A DNA stretch of 11,926 bases from Deltaproteobacteria bacterium (GTDB lineage Bacteria > Myxococcota_A > UBA796): the NCBI GenBank assembly GCA_002707085.1, contig PALY01000008.1:2452-14377 (forward strand), read 5' to 3'. Under the pieces are notes generated by a model, which did no database searches, was not told the origin of the DNA, and saw only the letters and a list, made by a program, of their open reading frames with translations. Position numbers and translations under genes: made by a program. Positions 1 to 9,882 of this stretch are shown here, piece by piece; the stretch's first letter is position 1, and the number at the start of each line of letters is the position of its first letter.

Positions 1-1245
1 TTGAAAGAACTTGAGGGCGCAGCCTGTCCAGGAGCGGGTGCATGCGGTGGGCAATTCACCGCCAATACGATGGCCACCGCTTTGACCTTTCTCGGTGTGT
101 CTCCAATGGGAATGAACGATCTACCGGCCATGGATCCGCGAAAGGATTCGGCGGCCTTCAAAGCCGGAGAACTTGCTCTCGACCTGATCAAAAGCAACCG
201 TCGGCTCAAAGACTTTGTAACGGTCCGTTCCCTTGAAAATGCAACCGCGTCGGTCGCTGCAACCGGTGGTTCAACCAATGCTGTGCTTCACCTGCTGGCA
301 TTGGCCAGAGAGTTTGAGCTGGATTTTCATCTTCACGACATCGATAGAATCTGTGCAGACACTCCCGTTCTCGCAGACCTCAAGCCAGGAGGTCAATTTA
401 CAGCACCCGATCTCCATGATGCTGGTGGCAGTCCGTTGTTGGTTCGCCGTTTGCTTGAAGCTGGGCTGCTCCACGACGAAAAGACGGTTTCAGGACAAAG
501 CTTGCACGCATTGACCCACCATGCAGAAGAAGTCTTGGGTCAACAGGTCGTCCACAGTGTGGATGCACCACTCAAGACTCGCGGTGGGTTGGCCATCCTC
601 AATGGTTCATTGGCCCCCGAAGGGTGTGTGGTCAAACTATGCGGGCACGGAACCCTGCAGCACGAAGGCCCTGCACGTGTTTTTGACCGTGAAGAGGATG
701 CATTTGATGCCGTCCAAAATGGTGACATCCATGCAGGCGATGTGATCGTCATCCGCTACGAAGGACCGCGCGGTGGACCGGGCATGAGAGAGATGCTGGC
801 CGTCACCGCCGCCCTGATTGGGCGGGGGTTGGGAGACAGCGTAGCGCTTGTGACCGACGGACGGTTCAGCGGTGCTACCCATGGACTGATGGTGGGTCAC
901 ATCGCACCGGAAGCCGCCAATGGTGGACCAATTGCATTCGTACGCGACGGTGACTTGATCACGCTCGATGTCACCACACGAAGACTCGACGTTCATGCAG
1001 ACTTATCGGCCCGTCACAATGATTGGACACCGCCACCCCCCAAGTACACCCGGGGAGCCTTGGCAAAATTTGCGGCCCTGGTTTCATCAGCATCGGAAGG
1101 TGCAGTCACAGGCTTTCCAAATCTTCTGGTCACTCCGCGACCTCAAGTCGCTCGGCCAACCACCCTGAATCAAAAAACCAATCCGAACTCAACCATGGTT
1201 CGGACATCAACGCTGCACACCGGTGCAGTTCTGGAGCAATCATGA
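1..1245 (+). CDS. ilvD: Dihydroxy-acid dehydratase, 3' part (5' end outside window)
   Basis: IlvD dehydrates 2,3-dihydroxy-isovalerate and 2,3-dihydroxy-3-methylvalerate to the 2-keto acids of valine and isoleucine synthesis, using an Fe-S cluster and Mg2+ in the cytosol. The reading frame is open from base 1, so the gene is cut by the window edge; the TTG at base 1 is not a real start. Visible family motifs are [17 protein letters not shown] (fragment residues 8-24, with a probable cluster-ligand Cys15), GGSTNA (89-94), the [14 protein letters not shown] region, EGPRGGPGM, and [11 protein letters not shown] (285-295), whose Ser290 is the expected catalytic base. About 414 residues remain, so roughly the first quarter to third of the enzyme is missing. 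The last ~30 residues after 'TGFPNL' are low in conservation and look like a C-terminal tail. The stop codon overlaps the ilvC start as ATGA (1242-1245). Confidence 0.95.
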
Positions 1246-2258
1246 ACCGTCTATTCACCGCCGCCGATACCAGCCTGGCCCCTCTTCAATCTTCTCGAAT
1301 CGCTGTCTTGGGCTACGCCAGTCAAGGGCGCGCCCAAGCGTTGAATCTCCGTGATTCAGGGCTGAATGTCACCCTAGGCCTTCGTCCTGGAGGTGCCAGC
1401 TGGAATCGAGCCTTGGTCGATGGTTGGCAACCCCAAACCATGACGGATGCCGTACAAGATGCAGATGTCATCGTATTTCTGGTGTCTGATATGTCTCAAC
1501 CAGAAGTATGGGAAAACCACGTAGGTCCATCCGTAAAGCCGGGGGCCCTTTTGATGTTTAGTCACGGCTTCAATGTTCACTACAACCGCATTCGTCCTCC
1601 AGCAGATGTGGACGTAGCGCTTATCGCTCCCAAATCACCGGGCGCCCTTGTACGAACTCAGTTCGAAGCAGGACAAGGCGTTCCTTGCCTCTTGGCTGTT
1701 CATCAAGACGCCACCGGAACAGCAGAATCACGGGCACTGTCCTACGCTCATGCCCTCGGTGGAACCTTGGCTGGTGTGTTGCAAACAACATTCGCCGAAG
1801 AAACAGAAACCGACCTATTTGGTGAACAAGCTGTACTGTGTGGTGGAGTGACTGAACTCATTCGAGCCGGCTGGGAAACCCTTGTCGAGGCTGGGTACAA
1901 CCCTCAAGTTGCCTATTTTGAATGTCTGCACGAACTCAAATTGATCGTCGACCTGTTGCATGAAGGTGGATTTGCTCGCATGCATCGAGATGTCAGTGAA
2001 ACCGCTCGTTTCGGAGACCTGACCCGGGGGCCTCGGGTAGTGAACCAAGACACACGTACAAGAATGAAAGAAATCCTTTCTGAAATCCAAAATGGGAGTT
2101 TTGCTCAAGAATGGATCAATGAAAATGAAGAAGGCCGCCCACGCTACGAAGCGTTGATGCAAGAAGATCTAAACCACCCTCTTGAAGAGGTCGGTCAGCA
2201 GCTTCGCGCTCGGATGGCTTGGCTCCAAGAAGAAGCACCAAGAGCGTCGGCAAAATGA
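1242..2258 (+). CDS. ilvC: Ketol-acid reductoisomerase, class I (short form)
   Basis: IlvC converts 2-acetolactate and 2-aceto-2-hydroxybutyrate to the dihydroxy acids by Mg2+-dependent alkyl shift and NADPH reduction. I chose ATG 1242 because it overlaps the ilvD stop and gives 338 residues, the normal class I size; a longer in-frame ORF from 1023 would only run back through ilvD. The Rossmann region is at residues 20-60 with GYASQG (24-29) and the cofactor-specificity loop GLRPGGASW (46-54). His108 (SHGFN) and Lys131 match active-site positions. The knotted C-terminal domain carries the metal ligands Asp191 and Glu195 (DLFGE) and Glu227 and Glu231 (ECLHE), then [10 protein letters not shown] and the conserved HPLEEVG end. 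Oddities are Ala for the second Gly of GxGxxG and KSPGALVR where KGPGHLVR is usual. It is stop/start coupled to the next gene. Confidence 0.95.
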
Positions 2259-3952
2259 GTCCAAACACCGCAAGACGACTCGTCGCACCAAGTTCGGGAG
2301 CCCAAGTAGTCCTTGATGCCCTCAAAGCTGAGGGCGTGGATGTGCTGTTTGGCTATCCGGGTGGTGCAATCCTTCCCGTATACGACGCCCTGCACAGTTC
2401 AGATCTTCGACACATCCTATGCCGACACGAACAAGGGGCGGCGCTTGCTGCGGATGGATACGCCCGGGCGACCGGACGGGTTGGGGTCTGTATGGCCACT
2501 TCCGGTCCGGGTGCGACCAACTTGGTCACGGGCTTGGCGAATGCCATGCTTGACTCCATCCCCATGGTTGCCTTGACCGGTCAGGTGCCCACCCAAGTGT
2601 TGGGTACCGATGCCTTCCAAGAAGTGGACACCATGGGGCTGACAATGCCCGTGGTCAAACACAACTTCTTGGTTCGTGAAGCCACCGATCTGCCCTGGGT
2701 CATGGCAGAAGCATTCCGAATCGCTCGCTCGGGCCGACCAGGGCCGGTCTTGGTCGATCTGCCCAAAGATGTCCAACTGGCAAACGTTCGGGTTCAACAA
2801 CCCAAACCACACACAAATCCCGAACCCACCAGGCTCGTGACAGACATTCATCCGTCGATTCAGCTACTCAAAATGTCGAAGCGACCGGTCATCTATGCTG
2901 GCGGTGGCGTCGGCATGGCCGATGCTGTCGATGTCTTCCGGAAATTCGTGGAAACCACCGGCATCCCCACAGTGACCACCCTGAAAGGACTGGGATTATT
3001 GCCGCCAAACCATCCTCTGAACTTGGGCATGCTCGGCATGCATGGCCTTGAGCAGGCCAACAAAGCGGTACAAGCGTCCGATTTATTGATCGTCTTGGGC
3101 GCGCGCTTCGATGACCGGGTCACTGGAAAGCTCTCCGGATTCGCACCCCACGCTCGAGTATTGCACGTAGAGATCGACCCTTCTGAAGTCGGAAAAGTGC
3201 GGGCTGCTGACGTATCCATCGTCGGAGACTTGGGACCCGCCCTGGAAACACTGTGTCATCAACTGGAACGACCGCTCCAAATCGCTGATTGGAGAGAAAA
3301 ATGCAAGCGACTACAAGCCGAACACACGTGGGACTATGAACCTCCGCATGAAAAAGTGTATGCCCCTCGTTTCCTTAAAATGCTTTCGGCAGCACAAGGG
3401 CCTCATGGGGTCATCGCCTGTGATGTCGGTCAGCATCAAATGTGGGTGGCCCAACACTGCGGCATACATCGGCCAGAAAACCATCTCAGCAGCGGAGGCT
3501 TGGGTACCATGGGGTACGGACTGCCCGCAGCAATTGGCGCCCAACTGGGAAGACCCAAAGCGTCGGTCATAAACGTCAGTGGGGATGGTTCGTTCATGAT
3601 GAATGTACAAGAACTGGCGACCCTCAAACGCTACAATCTTCCCGTAAAGATTGTTGTCTTGGACAACAGCTGTCTTGGCATGGTGCGTCAATGGCAAGAA
3701 CTGTTTTTAGAAAAGCGGTACAGCGAAACAGACCTCAGCGACAATCCGGACTTTTCGAAAGTTGCTGAAGCATTTGGGATCGCCTCTTCACGACTGTGGA
3801 GACGCGACCAAGAAGCAGAGTCCATCAACTGGCTGCTCAATACAGAGGGTCCTGCACTCTTGCACGTCGCCGTCGATCCTCAAGCAAATGTCTGGCCATT
3901 CGTACCGCCTGGTCACGACAACTCGACCATGATGACTGGAGAATCGAAATGA
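2255..3952 (+). CDS. ilvG: Acetolactate synthase large subunit, AHAS II (IlvG)-like
   Basis: This ThDP-, Mg2+- and FAD-dependent enzyme condenses pyruvate with pyruvate or 2-ketobutyrate, the first step common to valine and isoleucine synthesis. ATG 2255 overlaps the ilvC stop (ATGA) and gives 565 residues, normal for the family; an upstream in-frame ATG at 2219 lies inside ilvC and is less likely. The ThDP-activating Glu59 lies in RHEQGAALAADGYAR. The central FAD domain includes GARFDDRVTGK (282-292). The ThDP/Mg2+ motif runs from GDGSFMMN (443-450) to LDNSCLGMVRQW (469-480), followed by RYSETDLSDNPDF. The Trp480 position corresponds to the IlvG Trp linked with 2-ketobutyrate preference. The C-terminal 'NVWPFVPPG' resembles E. 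coli IlvG more than IlvB or IlvI, and the next gene is IlvM-like, which supports the IlvG call. Confidence 0.93.
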   Translation: MSPNTARRLVAPSSGAQVVLDALKAEGVDVLFGYPGGAILPVYDALHSSDLRHILCRHEQGAALAADGYARATGRVGVCMATSGPGATNLVTGLANAMLDSIPMVALTGQVPTQVLGTDAFQEVDTMGLTMPVVKHNFLVREATDLPWVMAEAFRIARSGRPGPVLVDLPKDVQLANVRVQQPKPHTNPEPTRLVTDIHPSIQLLKMSKRPVIYAGGGVGMADAVDVFRKFVETTGIPTVTTLKGLGLLPPNHPLNLGMLGMHGLEQANKAVQASDLLIVLGARFDDRVTGKLSGFAPHARVLHVEIDPSEVGKVRAADVSIVGDLGPALETLCHQLERPLQIADWREKCKRLQAEHTWDYEPPHEKVYAPRFLKMLSAAQGPHGVIACDVGQHQMWVAQHCGIHRPENHLSSGGLGTMGYGLPAAIGAQLGRPKASVINVSGDGSFMMNVQELATLKRYNLPVKIVVLDNSCLGMVRQWQELFLEKRYSETDLSDNPDFSKVAEAFGIASSRLWRRDQEAESINWLLNTEGPALLHVAVDPQANVWPFVPPGHDNSTMMTGESK

Positions 3953-4176
3953 ACCATCAACTGCTCATCCATCTGCGTTCCGTGGAAGGCGCGCTGGTTC
4001 GCACGATCGGTTTGGTTGAACGACGAGGCTACGCGCCGGAAAGAGTGTCTGCTGTGCCCGTAGGTTCGCACACCACCATGCTGCGCCTGACTGTGAACGC
4101 ACAACGACCCATCGAAAAACTCATTCACCAACTCAGAAAACTGTACGACGTACAACACGTGGAGATCACAACATGA
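3949..4176 (+). CDS. ilvM: Acetolactate synthase small subunit, short IlvM-like ACT-domain protein
   Basis: This is the regulatory/activating subunit partner of the preceding large subunit. ATG 3949 overlaps the ilvG stop (ATGA), and the 75-residue product ends in an ATGA overlap with ilvE. A single ACT-like fold is suggested by the alternating pattern from LLIHLRSVEGALVRTIGLVERRGY to VSAVPVGSHTTMLRLTVN. The end QRPIEKLIHQLRKLYDVQHVEI parallels the end of E. coli IlvM. It is far shorter than IlvN/IlvH-type subunits that bind valine, having no second C-terminal domain. Known AHAS II enzymes need the small subunit for activity and are poorly inhibited by valine; whether that holds here is an inference. 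The reading frame is open upstream to 3796 inside ilvG, but the coupled ATG is the logical start. Confidence 0.85.
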   Translation: MNHQLLIHLRSVEGALVRTIGLVERRGYAPERVSAVPVGSHTTMLRLTVNAQRPIEKLIHQLRKLYDVQHVEITT

Positions 4177-5072
4177 ACAACAACACACCCTACATCTGGG
4201 TCGATGGAAACATCATCACGAGCGACGAGAGCGGTTGTACGCTGCTTGAACACGGACTTCATTATGGAACGGGTGTATTTGAGGGCATTCGTTGCTATCC
4301 AACCGCCAATGGTCCCGCGATTTTCCGTCTTGATGCACACATGAAACGACTGCAGGCTGGCGCCGAAGTCCTTGGAATGAACATTGACATTCATCAACTG
4401 TCCCAAGCGGCACTCGATGTTCTGCATGCAAACCAACATCAAAGTGCGTACATCCGACCGATCATCTTCTATGGAGCAGGTTCTCTGGGTTTAGATGTCG
4501 GCGATCAATTGGTCACCCATTCTGTCGTGGCTTCGATGCCATGGAAGTCCCATTTAGGAGAAGCGGCTGAAAACAAAGGGGTCTGGATGAAAACATCCTC
4601 TGTGCGCAGGGTTCCCGCCTCTTCGGTCCCTCCACTGAAATTGTGCGGCACCTATGTAAATTCCATCATTGCCAAACGGGAAGCCACACAAGCGGGATTC
4701 GAAGAGGCTCTTTTTCTAGACCCAGATGGACGAATCTGTGAGGCCACTGGAGAGAATGTATTCATGGTGAAAAATGGCATTGTGACCGCTGTAGAACACC
4801 ACGATGCTTTGCCAGGCATCACCCGGGACACGATCATCTCTCTCGCGCAAGCAGAAGTGCGACCGGTCTACCTCAAAGAACTGTTGAACGCAGATGAGGT
4901 TTTCCTGACGGGTACCTCTGCAGAGGTTGCACCCGTGACTCGCATCGACAACACCCAATTTGAAATCGGTCCCGTCACGCGCAGATTGCAGACTTTGTAC
5001 CAAGACCTGGTGCATGGAAGGCTGCCACAACACACAGCCTGGCTCACTCGGGTTCGAAAATGGGCGGCCTGA
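4173..5072 (+). CDS. ilvE: Branched-chain amino-acid aminotransferase (class IV PLP enzyme)
   Basis: IlvE makes the final transamination of 2-keto acids to valine, isoleucine and leucine, with glutamate as amino donor. The 299-residue product has the usual family length. The N-terminal region carries the fold-type IV signature GLHYGTGVFEGIRCY (28-42). The PLP lysine is probably Lys156 in PPLKLCGTY, followed by YVNSIIAKREA and the cofactor-contacting stretch ICEATGENVF (188-197, with Glu190). LPGITRD follows further on, and GTSAEVAPV is near the C-terminal end. The start ATG 4173 overlaps the ilvM stop and the 3' end overlaps ilvA by 13 bases, placing it firmly in the operon. A D-amino-acid or aminodeoxychorismate-lyase function is possible for the fold but unlikely in this context. 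Confidence 0.93.
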   Translation: MNNNTPYIWVDGNIITSDESGCTLLEHGLHYGTGVFEGIRCYPTANGPAIFRLDAHMKRLQAGAEVLGMNIDIHQLSQAALDVLHANQHQSAYIRPIIFYGAGSLGLDVGDQLVTHSVVASMPWKSHLGEAAENKGVWMKTSSVRRVPASSVPPLKLCGTYVNSIIAKREATQAGFEEALFLDPDGRICEATGENVFMVKNGIVTAVEHHDALPGITRDTIISLAQAEVRPVYLKELLNADEVFLTGTSAEVAPVTRIDNTQFEIGPVTRRLQTLYQDLVHGRLPQHTAWLTRVRKWAA

Positions 5073-5998
5073 AAAGAGTCACCCTCAACGATGTACACAA
5101 AGCCGCAGAGCGGCTGCGACCGATCTTGTCGCCCACACCCCTTGTGTACAGCCACGACCGGGATGCTTGGCTAAAATTAGAGAACCTCCAGTTCACCGGT
5201 GCCTACAAAGTTCGCGGGGCGCTCAACGCACTGTTGATACAGATACAACGCAATGACCGAAGAACGGTCATTGCAGCATCTGCGGGCAACCACGGTGCGG
5301 GTGTGGCCTGGGCCGCACGCCATGTGGGGCTGGAAGCCATCATCGTGGTTCCAGTCCATGCACCAAGATCGAAAGTCGACCGGATACGGCAACTTGGTGC
5401 AAAGGTTGTGTTCATGGGCGAGACCTTTGAAGGCAGTCTCAAATGGGCCCAATACTGCGCACGCCAACATGGATTCCGCCTGCTGCATGCTTTTGACGAT
5501 CCGGATGTCATCGCAGGACAAGGCACCGTGGCTCTGGAGCTTCTCGATCTTCAGCCTGACGTTGTCTTGATTCCCATTGGTGGGGGCGGTTTGGCAGCAG
5601 GAACGTCTTTGGTCTTGAAGGATGCAGGGATCCGTGCGGTTGGCGTACAAATCAAAGGGGTTGATGCGCTGGCCAGCTACCTGCGGGGTGGCCCTGTCCG
5701 GATTCGTCCGAAAAAGACCATTGCAGATGGACTCCGTGTCCGTGAATCCGGACACATCACGCGAGAGTTGTGTGAACAGAATCTCTCGCAGGTGGTGTTG
5801 GTCACAGAATCAGAAGTGCAATCATCGATGCAATCTCTAGAAACATGTGAACCGTGGAGCGTCGAGGGTGCAGGCGCGGTTTCTGTCGCAGCGCTTACAC
5901 AGGTCGTGGGCCTTCGACGCGTAGCCCTCATTACCGGTGGCAATCGCGACACGGCTCCCATGATGAACGACCAACGAAAAGCCCTACTCATCAATTGA
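5060..5998 (+). CDS. ilvA: Threonine dehydratase (deaminase), catalytic domain only
   Basis: This enzyme deaminates threonine to 2-ketobutyrate, the isoleucine-specific entry to the pathway. ATG 5060 lies 13 bases inside ilvE and gives 312 residues. The fold-type II PLP signature is FTGAYKVRGA (45-54) with Schiff-base Lys50. The phosphate/substrate loop is SAGNHG (74-79), the glycine-rich PLP-phosphate loop is GGGG (174-177), and EGAGA and TGGNRD are near the end. The protein stops after the catalytic domain. The ~200-residue C-terminal ACT-like regulatory part that makes E. coli IlvA isoleucine-sensitive is absent, so it resembles TdcB in size. Its place in the ilv operon argues for a biosynthetic role. 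Serine dehydratase or serine racemase activity cannot be excluded from sequence alone. Confidence 0.88.
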   Translation: MGGLKRVTLNDVHKAAERLRPILSPTPLVYSHDRDAWLKLENLQFTGAYKVRGALNALLIQIQRNDRRTVIAASAGNHGAGVAWAARHVGLEAIIVVPVHAPRSKVDRIRQLGAKVVFMGETFEGSLKWAQYCARQHGFRLLHAFDDPDVIAGQGTVALELLDLQPDVVLIPIGGGGLAAGTSLVLKDAGIRAVGVQIKGVDALASYLRGGPVRIRPKKTIADGLRVRESGHITRELCEQNLSQVVLVTESEVQSSMQSLETCEPWSVEGAGAVSVAALTQVVGLRRVALITGGNRDTAPMMNDQRKALLIN

Positions 5999-6013: not shown

Positions 6014-6123
6014 TATTTGAACAAAACGTTTCGTTGTTTGTGATCTTTAATCTCCGGTAGTCATAGAGCAGCCAACGAGAAATCGTCGGCAAAAAACAAC
6101 CTTCAACGTTCATGAGGTTTCCA

Positions 6124-6858
6124 ATGACATCCATTTCTTCTTCAGCCATCAAGCTGCGACTGCTTGGTGTGGTGGCGATTTCATCCACAGCATGGGGATG
6201 CAACGTTGGAATCAAGACCTTTCCTGTTGGCGATACAGGTACGGCACCGGTAGCGGTCGATGACGACTCTGAAACTCCTGCATCTTCCGATGAAGACGAT
6301 TCCGATGAACCTTCAGACGATGAGTCCGGATGGGGAAGCGATGATGGCTCAGGAGGCGGTGATGATGCTTCTGGTTCAGGGGGGGGCTCCACTTCTTGTA
6401 CCTACGACGACTTTCCCGCGTTGATTCATCAAGCCATTCAAGACAACGGAGATCCCGCACACCCTCTGTTTACGTATCAAGCACGCGATGCTGAAACGGT
6501 ACCCTTTGATGAACTTCGAATCGAAAGCTACCAAGCTGAACCCTACTACGGTCCCTCTGGCCCTGGTTCTTACTCTCTCTCGGGTACCAACTATGAAGAC
6601 TGTGCGTTGTGCGTATACGTGATTCAAAACTGCAGTGACGACTACATGTGCGACAAAGTCTACTATGTCGATCAAGGGTCCTTGGACATCGCTTCCATGA
6701 GTACCAGCGGCGGCATGTTCAACGCGACCCTGCGCAACGCCCTCTTCCGCGAAGTGACAATCGATAGCACAACGTACGAATCAACCCCTGTACCGGGTGG
6801 TCAAAACTGGTGTGTAGAAAGCCTCGATATCGAACTGCCCATCACAATGTTCTATTAA
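6124..6858 (+). CDS. Lipoprotein with acidic/Gly-Ser linker and Cys-rich C-terminal domain, function unknown
   Basis: I chose ATG 6124 because TGAGG (6113-6117) sits 6 bases upstream as a Shine-Dalgarno; an in-frame ATG at 6112 would overlap it and only add four residues. The 244-residue product has a signal peptide with a basic KLR, a hydrophobic LLGVVAIS core and a degenerate lipobox AWG-C26. This predicts a lipid-anchored envelope protein, with Asn at +2 compatible with outer-membrane sorting. A 'VGDTGT' motif (35-40) and a D/S/G/E-rich linker (about 46-90) follow. The C-terminal domain (about 91-244) has Cys92, 160, 163, 170, 176 and 230, in patterns CALC, NC, MC and NWC, plus GGMFNATLRNALFREVTID. 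I recall similar domains in myxobacterial lipoproteins, but no function is known to me. An 8-G run (6379-6386) lies in the linker. The gene appears to be monocistronic. Confidence 0.82.
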   Translation: MTSISSSAIKLRLLGVVAISSTAWGCNVGIKTFPVGDTGTAPVAVDDDSETPASSDEDDSDEPSDDESGWGSDDGSGGGDDASGSGGGSTSCTYDDFPALIHQAIQDNGDPAHPLFTYQARDAETVPFDELRIESYQAEPYYGPSGPGSYSLSGTNYEDCALCVYVIQNCSDDYMCDKVYYVDQGSLDIASMSTSGGMFNATLRNALFREVTIDSTTYESTPVPGGQNWCVESLDIELPITMFY

Positions 6859-7900: not shown

Positions 7901-8869
7901 ATGTACAAGATCATCCTACTCATTGCTTCTTCCTTTACATATGGATGCACAGAAACAGGCATCTCTTCGCTCAATGGTGGCGCCGATGGCGTCAGCGATG
8001 TTCCTGTAGACACAGGCATCAGTTGGGACCGCGAAGATGAAACGGAAGATTCAGAAGAAGACCCAGAAGACGAAGAGCCAAACAATGAGGAAATGCCAGA
8101 AGACGAGGACTCAACCGAAGACGATGAACCCATCGATGTAGAAGAGCCTCCAGAAGACGATTGCGACCATACATCTGACCTGGTCTATGTGATCGATCGA
8201 ACTGACGAAGCCATCTACCTTTTCGATCCCACGGACTACAACTTTGACTTGGTCGGTGAACTGGATTGTGGCATCTTCGCGGGCTCTCCAGGATCCATGT
8301 CGGTCTCACGCGACGGCTACGCCTACGTTCGCTACTCCGACAACACCGTATACCAAGTAGACCTGGAATCGATGGAGTGTGTGGAAACGTCCTATGACGT
8401 AGACTTCGGTGGTTTCGGCATGGGGTATGCAACCAACAGTGGTTCCACCTGGCGAGACCAACTGTATGTCGCAAACTCCAACGAAATCGCTGTGGTCAAC
8501 ACCGATACCTGGAACCTCTCTGTCATCGGAAGCCTGCCGAGCCAATCTGAACTAACGGGCAATGCAGATGGAGAACTATGGGCCATTCTGCCGTTAGAAA
8601 GCCCCGCAAAACTCGTGGAAGTCAATAAAACCGATGGAGCCGTTGTCGATACCATCAATCTGGGCAGCATGCCCAACCCAACAGACATCGACACCTTTGC
8701 CTTTGCCACTTGGGGAGGGGAGTTCTGGGTGTTCATTCGAACCTACGGAATGGGCAGCAGCACGGATGTATACCGAGTCACATCCGGTGGCGTGATGACC
8801 AAAGTGTCCGGAGACACAGGAATGGATGTGGTCGGAGCCGGTGTCTCCACGTGCGCACCCACCGAATGA
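7901..8869 (+). CDS. Lipoprotein with highly acidic linker and beta-propeller-like domain, function unknown
   Basis: The 322-residue product begins with a short signal peptide (KIILLIASSF) and a degenerate lipobox TYG-C16, so it is predicted to be a lipid-anchored envelope protein. 'PVDTGIS' (35-41) precedes a linker of about 45 residues (42-88) made almost wholly of Asp, Glu and Pro. The remainder has repeated beta-strand blocks typical of WD/NHL-like propellers: LVYVIDRTDEAIYLFDP, GSMSVSRDGYAYVRYSDNTVYQVD, FGMGYATNSG, LYVANSNEIAVVNTDTW, ELTGNADGELWAILPL and FAFATWGGEFWVFIR. It ends with VGAGVSTCAPTE. This layout, including the VGAGVSTCAP ending, matches lipoproteins I recall from myxobacteria; their function is unknown. 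Start choice is firm because of the strong Shine-Dalgarno. It is divergent from the LysR gene and probably under its control (inference). Confidence 0.85.
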   Translation: MYKIILLIASSFTYGCTETGISSLNGGADGVSDVPVDTGISWDREDETEDSEEDPEDEEPNNEEMPEDEDSTEDDEPIDVEEPPEDDCDHTSDLVYVIDRTDEAIYLFDPTDYNFDLVGELDCGIFAGSPGSMSVSRDGYAYVRYSDNTVYQVDLESMECVETSYDVDFGGFGMGYATNSGSTWRDQLYVANSNEIAVVNTDTWNLSVIGSLPSQSELTGNADGELWAILPLESPAKLVEVNKTDGAVVDTINLGSMPNPTDIDTFAFATWGGEFWVFIRTYGMGSSTDVYRVTSGGVMTKVSGDTGMDVVGAGVSTCAPTE

Positions 8870-8940: not shown

Positions 8941-8958
8941 TGCAAATGAGGAGACGTC

Positions 8959-9306
8959 ATGACGACCGACATCAAATGGTATTACCACCGCAAGTCCTGA
9001 ACGAGTTGCACACGCGCCCAGGAGTTCCTGGGACCCAAGAACATCTCGCAACCTGAATTTGTCATCGCAAACAAGATCAAGATTCATGAAGAAGAGGCTT
9101 TGAGCCTCGCCCGCGATGCCAAGCATATCTGGGTATCGAAGGGGAAAAAGCTCATCAAGTTTGACTTGAGCAATGATGTGTCAGATGAAGAGATTGCGCG
9201 CGTAATATTGGGACGCAGCGGTACACTACGCGCCCCCGCCATTCGTGCTGGAGACACATTTCTCGTGGGCTTCCATCCGGAAGGGTACACCGAGATTTTT
9301 GGGTAA
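8959..9306 (+). CDS. ArsC/Spx-like thioredoxin-fold selenoprotein (Sec at 8998-9000, UxxC motif)
   Basis: The frame reads MTTDIKWYYHRKS, then TGA, then TSCTRAQEFLG and on to a TAA at 9304-9306, with no other stop. This gives 115 residues with selenocysteine at position 14. GAGGAG (8948-8953) lies five bases before ATG 8959, a strong ribosome site that would be pointless for a 13-residue peptide. In ArsC/Spx-like proteins a redox Cys sits right after the first beta strand (WYYHR), often in CxxC form; here TGA occupies the first Cys position, giving U14-T-S-C17. The rest fits the family: a helix, EALSLARDAKHIWVSKGKKLIKFDL, and GRSGTLRAPAIRAGDTFLVGF, where LRAP (90-93) corresponds to the conserved Arg/cis-Pro region. 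A SECIS-like hairpin follows the TGA. It is likely a cytosolic redox enzyme; the substrate is unknown and arsenate reduction is not shown. The alternative is a pseudogene or a short ORF from 9100 without the active site. Confidence 0.85.
9005..9042 (+). promoter_or_regulatory. Bacterial SECIS-like hairpin within the selenoprotein gene
   Basis: CCCAGG (9017-9022) and CCUGGG (9027-9032) form a perfect 6-bp G/C-rich stem closed by the loop AGUU (9023-9026). The loop starts 22 nt after the UGA, within the spacing usual for SelB-dependent bacterial SECIS elements. It has a G in its first two positions and a GU step like the key GU of the E. coli fdhF element. A weak lower helix, GUU (9005-9007) with AAC (9040-9042), may extend it. 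Its fit is inferred from known bacterial SECIS rules, without a folding calculation. Confidence 0.65.
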
Positions 9307-9315
9307 AAACCATCC

Positions 9316-9882
9316 ATGTGGCTGCTACTTTTGATCCAAATCTGCATGGCCGGTGTCCCGGAACCCATTCAACTGACCCCGGCTGAACAGAAACTCATCG
9401 GCAGCGGTGAACTGGTGATTCGGGAAGGTGCTTCGGGTAGCATCACCGCAATCTTAGATGTGCAGGCTTCCAATCAAATCGTTTTGGAAGAAGTCATGAA
9501 TCTTCAAGCCAGAGTAGATGAGGTTCCATCAATCCAGGACCTATCGATCTATCTTCGGCAACCCAACACCATTGGTGGGAAGTGGACGGTGGGCATGTTT
9601 GGTGTGCAGGCACAATTCCATGTGCTGTACACCTTTGATTATGCCAACGGATGGATCACGTTTCGGATGGACGACGAGCGTGTAAACGAACTCAATGCGG
9701 CCGATGGTTCATACCAGACATACCCAGTCAATGGAGGCACACGGCTGATTTACCGATGTGCAGCATCGCCTGAATCCGCGGTACCTGGCTGGGTACGCGA
9801 CATGATTACCGGACGATCAATGAACCAACAACTGACCGGGATCGAAAGCCGCGCAAGAAAACGAAAAAACCCCGGCCAATGA
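9316..9882 (+). CDS. Probable exported SRPBCC/START-like protein
   Basis: The 188-residue product starts with a short hydrophobic stretch (WLLLLIQICMAG) that looks like a minimal signal peptide or anchor with no basic residue before it. The mature part resembles the SRPBCC (START/polyketide-cyclase/COQ10-like) ligand-binding fold: SITAILDVQASNQIVLEEVMNLQARVDEVPSIQDLSIY, then alternating strands with GMFGVQAQFHVLYTFDYANGWITFRMD, and GGTRLIYRCAASPESAVPGWVRDMITGRSMNQQLTGIESRA as the closing strand and long C-terminal helix. These proteins bind hydrophobic ligands in a cavity; the ligand here is unknown. It lies nine bases after the selenoprotein stop, in the same frame, with no clear Shine-Dalgarno, so translational coupling is likely. 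The C-terminal tail is basic (RARKRKN). Confidence 0.7.
   Translation: MWLLLLIQICMAGVPEPIQLTPAEQKLIGSGELVIREGASGSITAILDVQASNQIVLEEVMNLQARVDEVPSIQDLSIYLRQPNTIGGKWTVGMFGVQAQFHVLYTFDYANGWITFRMDDERVNELNAADGSYQTYPVNGGTRLIYRCAASPESAVPGWVRDMITGRSMNQQLTGIESRARKRKNPGQ

Follow-up and report, generated by a model that had tools for sequence, protein, structure and literature searches.

An open reading frame with an internal TGA codon

The stretch of DNA analysed here (11,926 nucleotides, hereafter the window) carries on its forward strand, at positions 8959-9306, a single gene that we assign, from its sequence and its scores against the models NF041106.1 and PF03960, to the ArsC-family selenoproteins. 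A Shine-Dalgarno-like GAGGAG (8948-8953) lies 5 nt upstream of the ATG start codon (8959-8961), in line with the strong ribosome-binding site that the first-pass annotation of this DNA had described. The same annotation had described a TGA at codon 14 followed by 101 open codons, and such a TGA is found at 8998-9000, followed by 101 sense codons and a TAA stop at 9304-9306. Another in-frame TGA occupies positions 8947-8949, immediately 5' of the gene start, and the only ATG, GTG or TTG found in frame between these two TGA codons is the ATG at 8959. When the codon-14 TGA is written as U, the translation reads MTTDIKWYYHRKS-U-TSCTRAQEFLGPK...TEIFG and comprises 115 residues, with the predicted selenocysteine (Sec) as the U of a UTSC motif and with Cys17 (9007-9009) as the presumed resolving residue of the resulting UxxC, according to the sequence and its alignment column.

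The length of the open frame was dropped as weak evidence, since a run of 101 open codons has a probability of about 0.013 in a random frame with the base composition of the window. As judged from comparisons between homologues, the above-chance case lies in a protein that is conserved before as well as after the TGA, and in the conservation of the TGA itself. When the 11 codons located 5' of the TGA were compared between five genes from the same class, the 10 pairs summed to 28 synonymous and 23 non-synonymous differences, against an expectation of 85 synonymous to 410 non-synonymous under random single changes, bearing in mind that these pairs are not independent and that codons changed several times were counted once. 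By this measure, the codons before the TGA are under coding constraint.

The protein stored for this locus (P0006) has 68 amino acids encoded from a TTG at 9100 (9100-9306, forward strand) and does not include the active site, just as had been predicted for a standard annotation. Gene finders lose the front end of the gene because a UGA codon, most likely read as Sec, sits at the active site, which makes this locus a clean example of a catalytic residue lost by standard annotation. The same holds for most of the family: sorted by a motif test, 102 of the 108 stored homologues lack the residue column because they start after the UGA, so that protein databases hardly show this family as a redox enzyme.

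The upstream part of the window (1-5998, forward strand) contains a branched-chain amino acid gene cluster with all genes in one direction: an IlvD-like gene truncated by the start of the window, then IlvC, genes resembling the large and small subunits of acetolactate synthase, IlvE and an IlvA-like threonine dehydratase. Three other forward-strand frames, at 6112-6858, 7901-8869 and 9316-9882 have no Pfam match up to E 1, and the latter two have no NCBIfam match up to 1e-5 either. By eye, the frames at 6112-6858 and 7901-8869 start with lipoprotein-signal-like N-termini that are followed by acidic Ser/Asp/Glu-rich stretches.

The codon-14 column and the decoding of UGA

Reading the DNA of relatives at the codon-14 column gave TGA in 104 and TGC in 3 of 107 distinct places, drawn from a search of 93 genomes, from the best 80 of 562 confirmed stretches and from a draw across the phylum, after removal of ten duplicates and of two rows that lack the column; since only the best 80 of the 562 stretches were taken, this set leans to relatives of the Sec query. 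A second census, kept separate from the first, covered 59 further places having the column (L203, which does not, was left out) and gave 55 TGA, 3 TGC and 1 TGT. Thus, the position at which homologues were to be checked for Cys or Sec holds one or the other wherever the DNA was read. The phylum draw offers a less biased view, even if its profile was built mostly from Sec members and may still favour Sec: 94 of 377 genomes matched, and the 78 strong matches (at least 96 bits) had TGA in 77 cases and TGC in a single one, G363/L196, whose NF041106 score of 105.2 bits is above the cut-off. Lower matches of this draw, with TGA or none (G365, G201, G245 and G328 among them, all below 30 bits), were left out of this reading. 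In the search from which the best 80 of 562 stretches were taken, titles of the TGA-bearing records listed point to Planctomycetota, Acidobacteria, Gemmatimonadota, Obscuribacterales, Bdellovibrionales, Zixiibacteriota and others.

Closer to the window host, 10 of 93 genomes match, its own included: nine have a full-length match with exactly one TGA each, while in the tenth (G074) the match is split into two pieces, of which the first contains the TGA. No match was found in 59 genomes from other families of the same order, showing that the gene is patchy near the host. The second Cys of the motif is not strictly required, since L100 (position 3028) has UTTS in place of UTSC, meaning a Sec without the usual second Cys.

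One could suspect a sequencing error at the TGA, or a Cys-encoding gene that is decaying after a nonsense mutation, considering that the host assembly is of the metagenome type and fragmented (165 contigs, 3.87 Mb, 72% complete), that stored homologues sharing the motif with a Cys at this column do exist (P0010, P0011 and P0039), and that damaged copies are seen among the relatives, with an extra in-frame stop in L087 and a broken frame in G074. However, an error at 8998-9000 is not credible because independent genomes carry a TGA at the same codon, and the constancy of this TGA, both in the 107 places (best 80 of 562 stretches included) and among the strong matches of the phylum sample, together with the coding constraint upstream of it, leaves error or decay with next to no chance.

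A host-wide reassignment of UGA to tryptophan or to another residue (as in codes 4 or 25) is what three other stored homologues might suggest, since P0002, P0004 and P0005 have a Trp at the Sec column. Yet these three come from short contigs (at longest 1524, 723 and 566 bases) and their Trp may, as a guess, come from a code-4 gene call; wherever the column was read in DNA, it had TGC or TGT as the alternative to TGA and never TGG. Moreover, 9 of the 11 other main frames of the window, ilv genes among them, end in TGA, so that UGA works as a stop codon there and a general reassignment can in practice be excluded. With complete Sec machinery in the host as well, we regard this reassignment as extremely improbable. 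P0004 and P0005, both from such short contigs, also have an Ala in place of the second Cys, giving a WTSA motif.

The first-pass annotation had inferred that the host decodes UGA as Sec and had named the Sec machinery as a way to check it. SelA (375.7 bits in a profile search of the host genome), SelB (300.5 bits for a cut-off of 242.25), SelD (398.2 bits for a cut-off of 125, with an in-frame TGA of its own within a GGGUGCK motif) and tRNA-Sec were all located in the host assembly, which, together with the Sec/Cys column of the homologues, supports that inference. Since every one of the 14 control genomes gave low-score matches in the SelB, SelD and tRNA-Sec searches, the count was restricted to matches over the cut-off, which occurred in 2, 2 and 5 of these controls, respectively. 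Two tRNA-Sec genes of the host assembly exceed the Rfam score, on contigs C71 and C121. The one on C71 is of the bacterial type, with 96 nt plus an encoded GCCA, and resembles the tRNA-Sec of the 11 relatives listed, 10 of which also end in GCCA. A tRNA-Sec match was found in 16 of 20 relatives but not in G001, a genome of the same genus that has the TGA-containing gene and whose assembly is about 80% complete; we take this absence as a probable assembly gap.

The C121 copy (L001, G000:C121; 1500-1586, minus strand, 86 nt) was considered as a duplicated selC and rejected: it has no encoded CCA, it differs from the C71 gene and from those of the 11 relatives, and it sits in DNA of outlying composition. 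The stretch around it contains simple repeats, has a lower GC content (0.482) and shows outlying trinucleotide use, and C121 is probably a eukaryotic, perhaps algal, contig that was binned into the host assembly. G016, an assembly from the same order, likewise has two tRNA-Sec matches that exceed the cut-off, at 65.3 and 53.7 bits.

A hairpin just downstream of the UGA

Folding, together with the pairing seen in relatives, places a SECIS-type hairpin at 9017-9032 on the forward strand (CCCAGG-AGUU-CCUGGG, 6 pairs), with an apical loop G at 9024. In the family, the stem-loop lies 18-37 nt after the first base of the UGA and has a GU in its loop. Of the 7 possible stem pairs, 6 or more were counted in 145 of 153 distinct relatives, a set that includes the best 80 of 562 stretches, whereas eight shifted centres used as a control gave as many pairs in only 2 to 21 of the 153 sequences. 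These counts stood at 146 of 154 before L175, a repeat of L080, was removed; L087 and L030 (which has a broken frame) had been left out before the hairpin tests, and L196, which has a Cys, and L201 were left out of the pair count by the motif search. The eight places that fall below 6 of 7 pairs include L024, from the window's own genus. The letters of the stem vary by group (CCCAGG/CCUGGG, GCGCAAGA/UCUUGCGC or GCGUCCAA/UUGGACGC), and the stem occurs in three registers that differ slightly.

The loop G is the third base of a codon in 148 of the 153 sequences, and where this codon encodes Glu it is GAG in 59 of 59 cases among 102 Sec sequences; codons pooled downstream in the same 102 sequences were GAG 122 times and GAA 122 times (best 80 of 562 stretches included in both sets). 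For the 102 Sec places, which again include these best 80, the mean folding energy was -10.4 compared to -7.1 in synonymous re-codings, but only about 22 of the 102 were individually beyond their re-codings at 0.05. The window hairpin, taken alone, was not stronger than its synonymous re-codings (fraction 0.37). The hairpin signal lies in the set and not in single sequences.

The three Cys places had a mean energy of -4.9, compared to -5.0 in their synonymous re-codings, and 4, 5 and 4 of 7 pairs; this control is small and not clean, since it has only three members, two of which keep the loop G, and since one of them (L109) folds to -8.3. At the level of the family, the genes have what is expected of bacterial selenoproteins, which is a SECIS hairpin just 3' of the UGA with a G in its loop.

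Family, fold and proposed function

Written with a Cys in place of Sec, the protein scores 117.7 bits against NF041106.1, the NCBIfam model for an 'ArsC family (seleno)protein' (ArsC_rel_Se_1; cut-off of 85), with residues 5-110 aligned onto positions 1-107 of the 107 in the model, and 24.3 bits against Pfam ArsC (PF03960), just over the cut-off of 24. Its codon-14 TGA and Cys17 supply the UxxC that NF041106 specifies, in which the first redox residue is Sec (or Cys). All 40 members of our alignment match NF041106 at E up to 0.001, and in these 40 chosen rows, which exclude P0002, P0004 and P0005 with their Trp, the U/C14 and R91-A92-P93 columns are invariant, while the C17 column is at least 90% conserved. 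The UxxC motif and the existence of Sec and Cys forms are common to the window protein and NF041106, without any substantive difference other than that the window copy is stored truncated. A profile search put Spx structures first (best solved relative 6ghb, E 5.6e-8). The 'ArsC/Spx-like' label given earlier is right for the fold family, and the profile matches to Pfam ArsC and to Spx assign to the protein a predicted thioredoxin fold of the Spx/ArsC type. Thioredoxin-fold Sec sites are also found, judging from family names, in the UXX-star glutaredoxin-like selenoproteins NF041212 and NF041114, but these are different family models, which match 9 and 1 of the 40 alignment members only weakly and are not among the matches of the window protein at E up to 1.

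Four divergent sequences from the phylum (L198, L199, L200 and L202) have a FYGR-x-UTGC motif, a TGA in the codon-14 column and all 7 of the hairpin pairs. L198, L199 and L202 score 59-69.5 bits, under the NF041106 cut-off of 85, and the four possibly form an unmodelled sister group of this family.

The gene had also been called unannotated, which is correct for the copy at 8959-9306 and incorrect for the family, which is curated as NF041106 and already in print. The 2008 GOS selenoproteome (PMC2398784) describes an 'Arsenate reductase 2' (cd03032) with a UxxC motif, in 42 Sec and 238 Cys forms. This protein shares the ArsC/Spx domain and the UxxC with the window protein, whereas Sec predominates almost completely in the places read here, in a sample that leans to relatives of the Sec query; the GOS Cys set may be wider than ours. 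PMC9312934 names an 'Arsenate reductase-like protein' (COG1393) with UxxC. A 2026 review (PMC13188914) uses the same name and COG, lists NF041106 as a UxxC selenoprotein, cites PMC2398784 as its reference 61 and describes the biological functions of such proteins as largely uncharacterized. From the motif and this citation, and with the sequences themselves not compared, we infer that 'Arsenate reductase 2' corresponds to the NF041106 family. Considering that the NF041106 cut-off is exceeded and that the family is in print, the gene at 8959-9306 is a further, misannotated member of a family that is already catalogued, and in itself it overturns nothing; the present analysis adds its place, its corrected start and the hairpin evidence.

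Altogether, the sequence comparisons make it almost certain that the product of this gene is a small NF041106-family selenoprotein, in which UGA codon 14 would be decoded as Sec by SelB and tRNA-Sec, aided by the SECIS hairpin about 20 nt 3' of the UGA, and which would be a putative thiol/selenol-disulfide oxidoreductase. From general knowledge of thioredoxin folds, Sec14 would be the attacking nucleophile of the UxxC centre and Cys17 the resolving residue; both would form a selenenylsulfide, which cellular thiols would then recycle, and it is from this cycle that a role as a soluble oxidoreductase is proposed.

A true Spx-type regulator that binds RNA polymerase, with Sec replacing Cys in its redox switch, seems unlikely. 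The best solved relatives are Spx proteins, 38 of the 40 alignment members match the Spx/MgsR model (TIGR01617) at E up to 0.001, and the likeness to Spx/MgsR (6ghb and other PDB entries) extends from the profile fold family to an LR-x-P stretch and to the CxxC position, kept as UxxC. The window protein itself, however, reaches only 25.8 bits for a TIGR01617 cut-off of 75.05 and 21.4 bits for a cut-off of 123 with the Spx model NF002459, which leaves it far short of both.

An arsenate reductase using Sec as the arsenate nucleophile would agree with the fold, given that PF03960 is common to the window protein, to ArsC arsenate reductases (TIGR00014) and to the GOS 'Arsenate reductase 1', and also with the names 'arsenate reductase' or 'arsenate reductase-like' given in the published sources. 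Nevertheless, the window protein has UxxC and not the UxxS of 'Arsenate reductase 1', TIGR00014 is absent from its 9 matches up to E 1, and scans of other frames of the window (5 against Pfam, 10 against NCBIfam) named no gene for arsenic resistance, making this activity quite improbable.

The gene context provides no clue to a substrate of the proposed oxidoreductase, since no gene neighbour recurs widely: when 549 frames from the flanking 3 kb or 1.5 kb were clustered, the two largest clusters lay across the gene on the opposite strand and were rejected as presumed shadow frames, and the next largest linked at most 7 loci, among the 15 listed. With a near-fixed Sec in the places read and a conserved hairpin, the substrate of this widespread small selenoprotein is a reasonable target for future work.

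A more speculative idea, to which we give little credence, is that of a selenium-based, Spx-like redox switch: a Sec-Cys bridge would serve as the sensor of oxidants, and the target would be transcription or a protein partner, as opposed to bulk reduction, Sec being almost fixed across several phyla and Cys being rare. Two further TGA-bearing sequences, L207 and L208, have a YLK-x-TUTSC motif and score 59.7 and 43.6 bits against the Spx/MgsR model (cut-off of 75.05) and 37.7 and 36.4 bits against NF041106; they are candidate Sec forms nearer to Spx itself.
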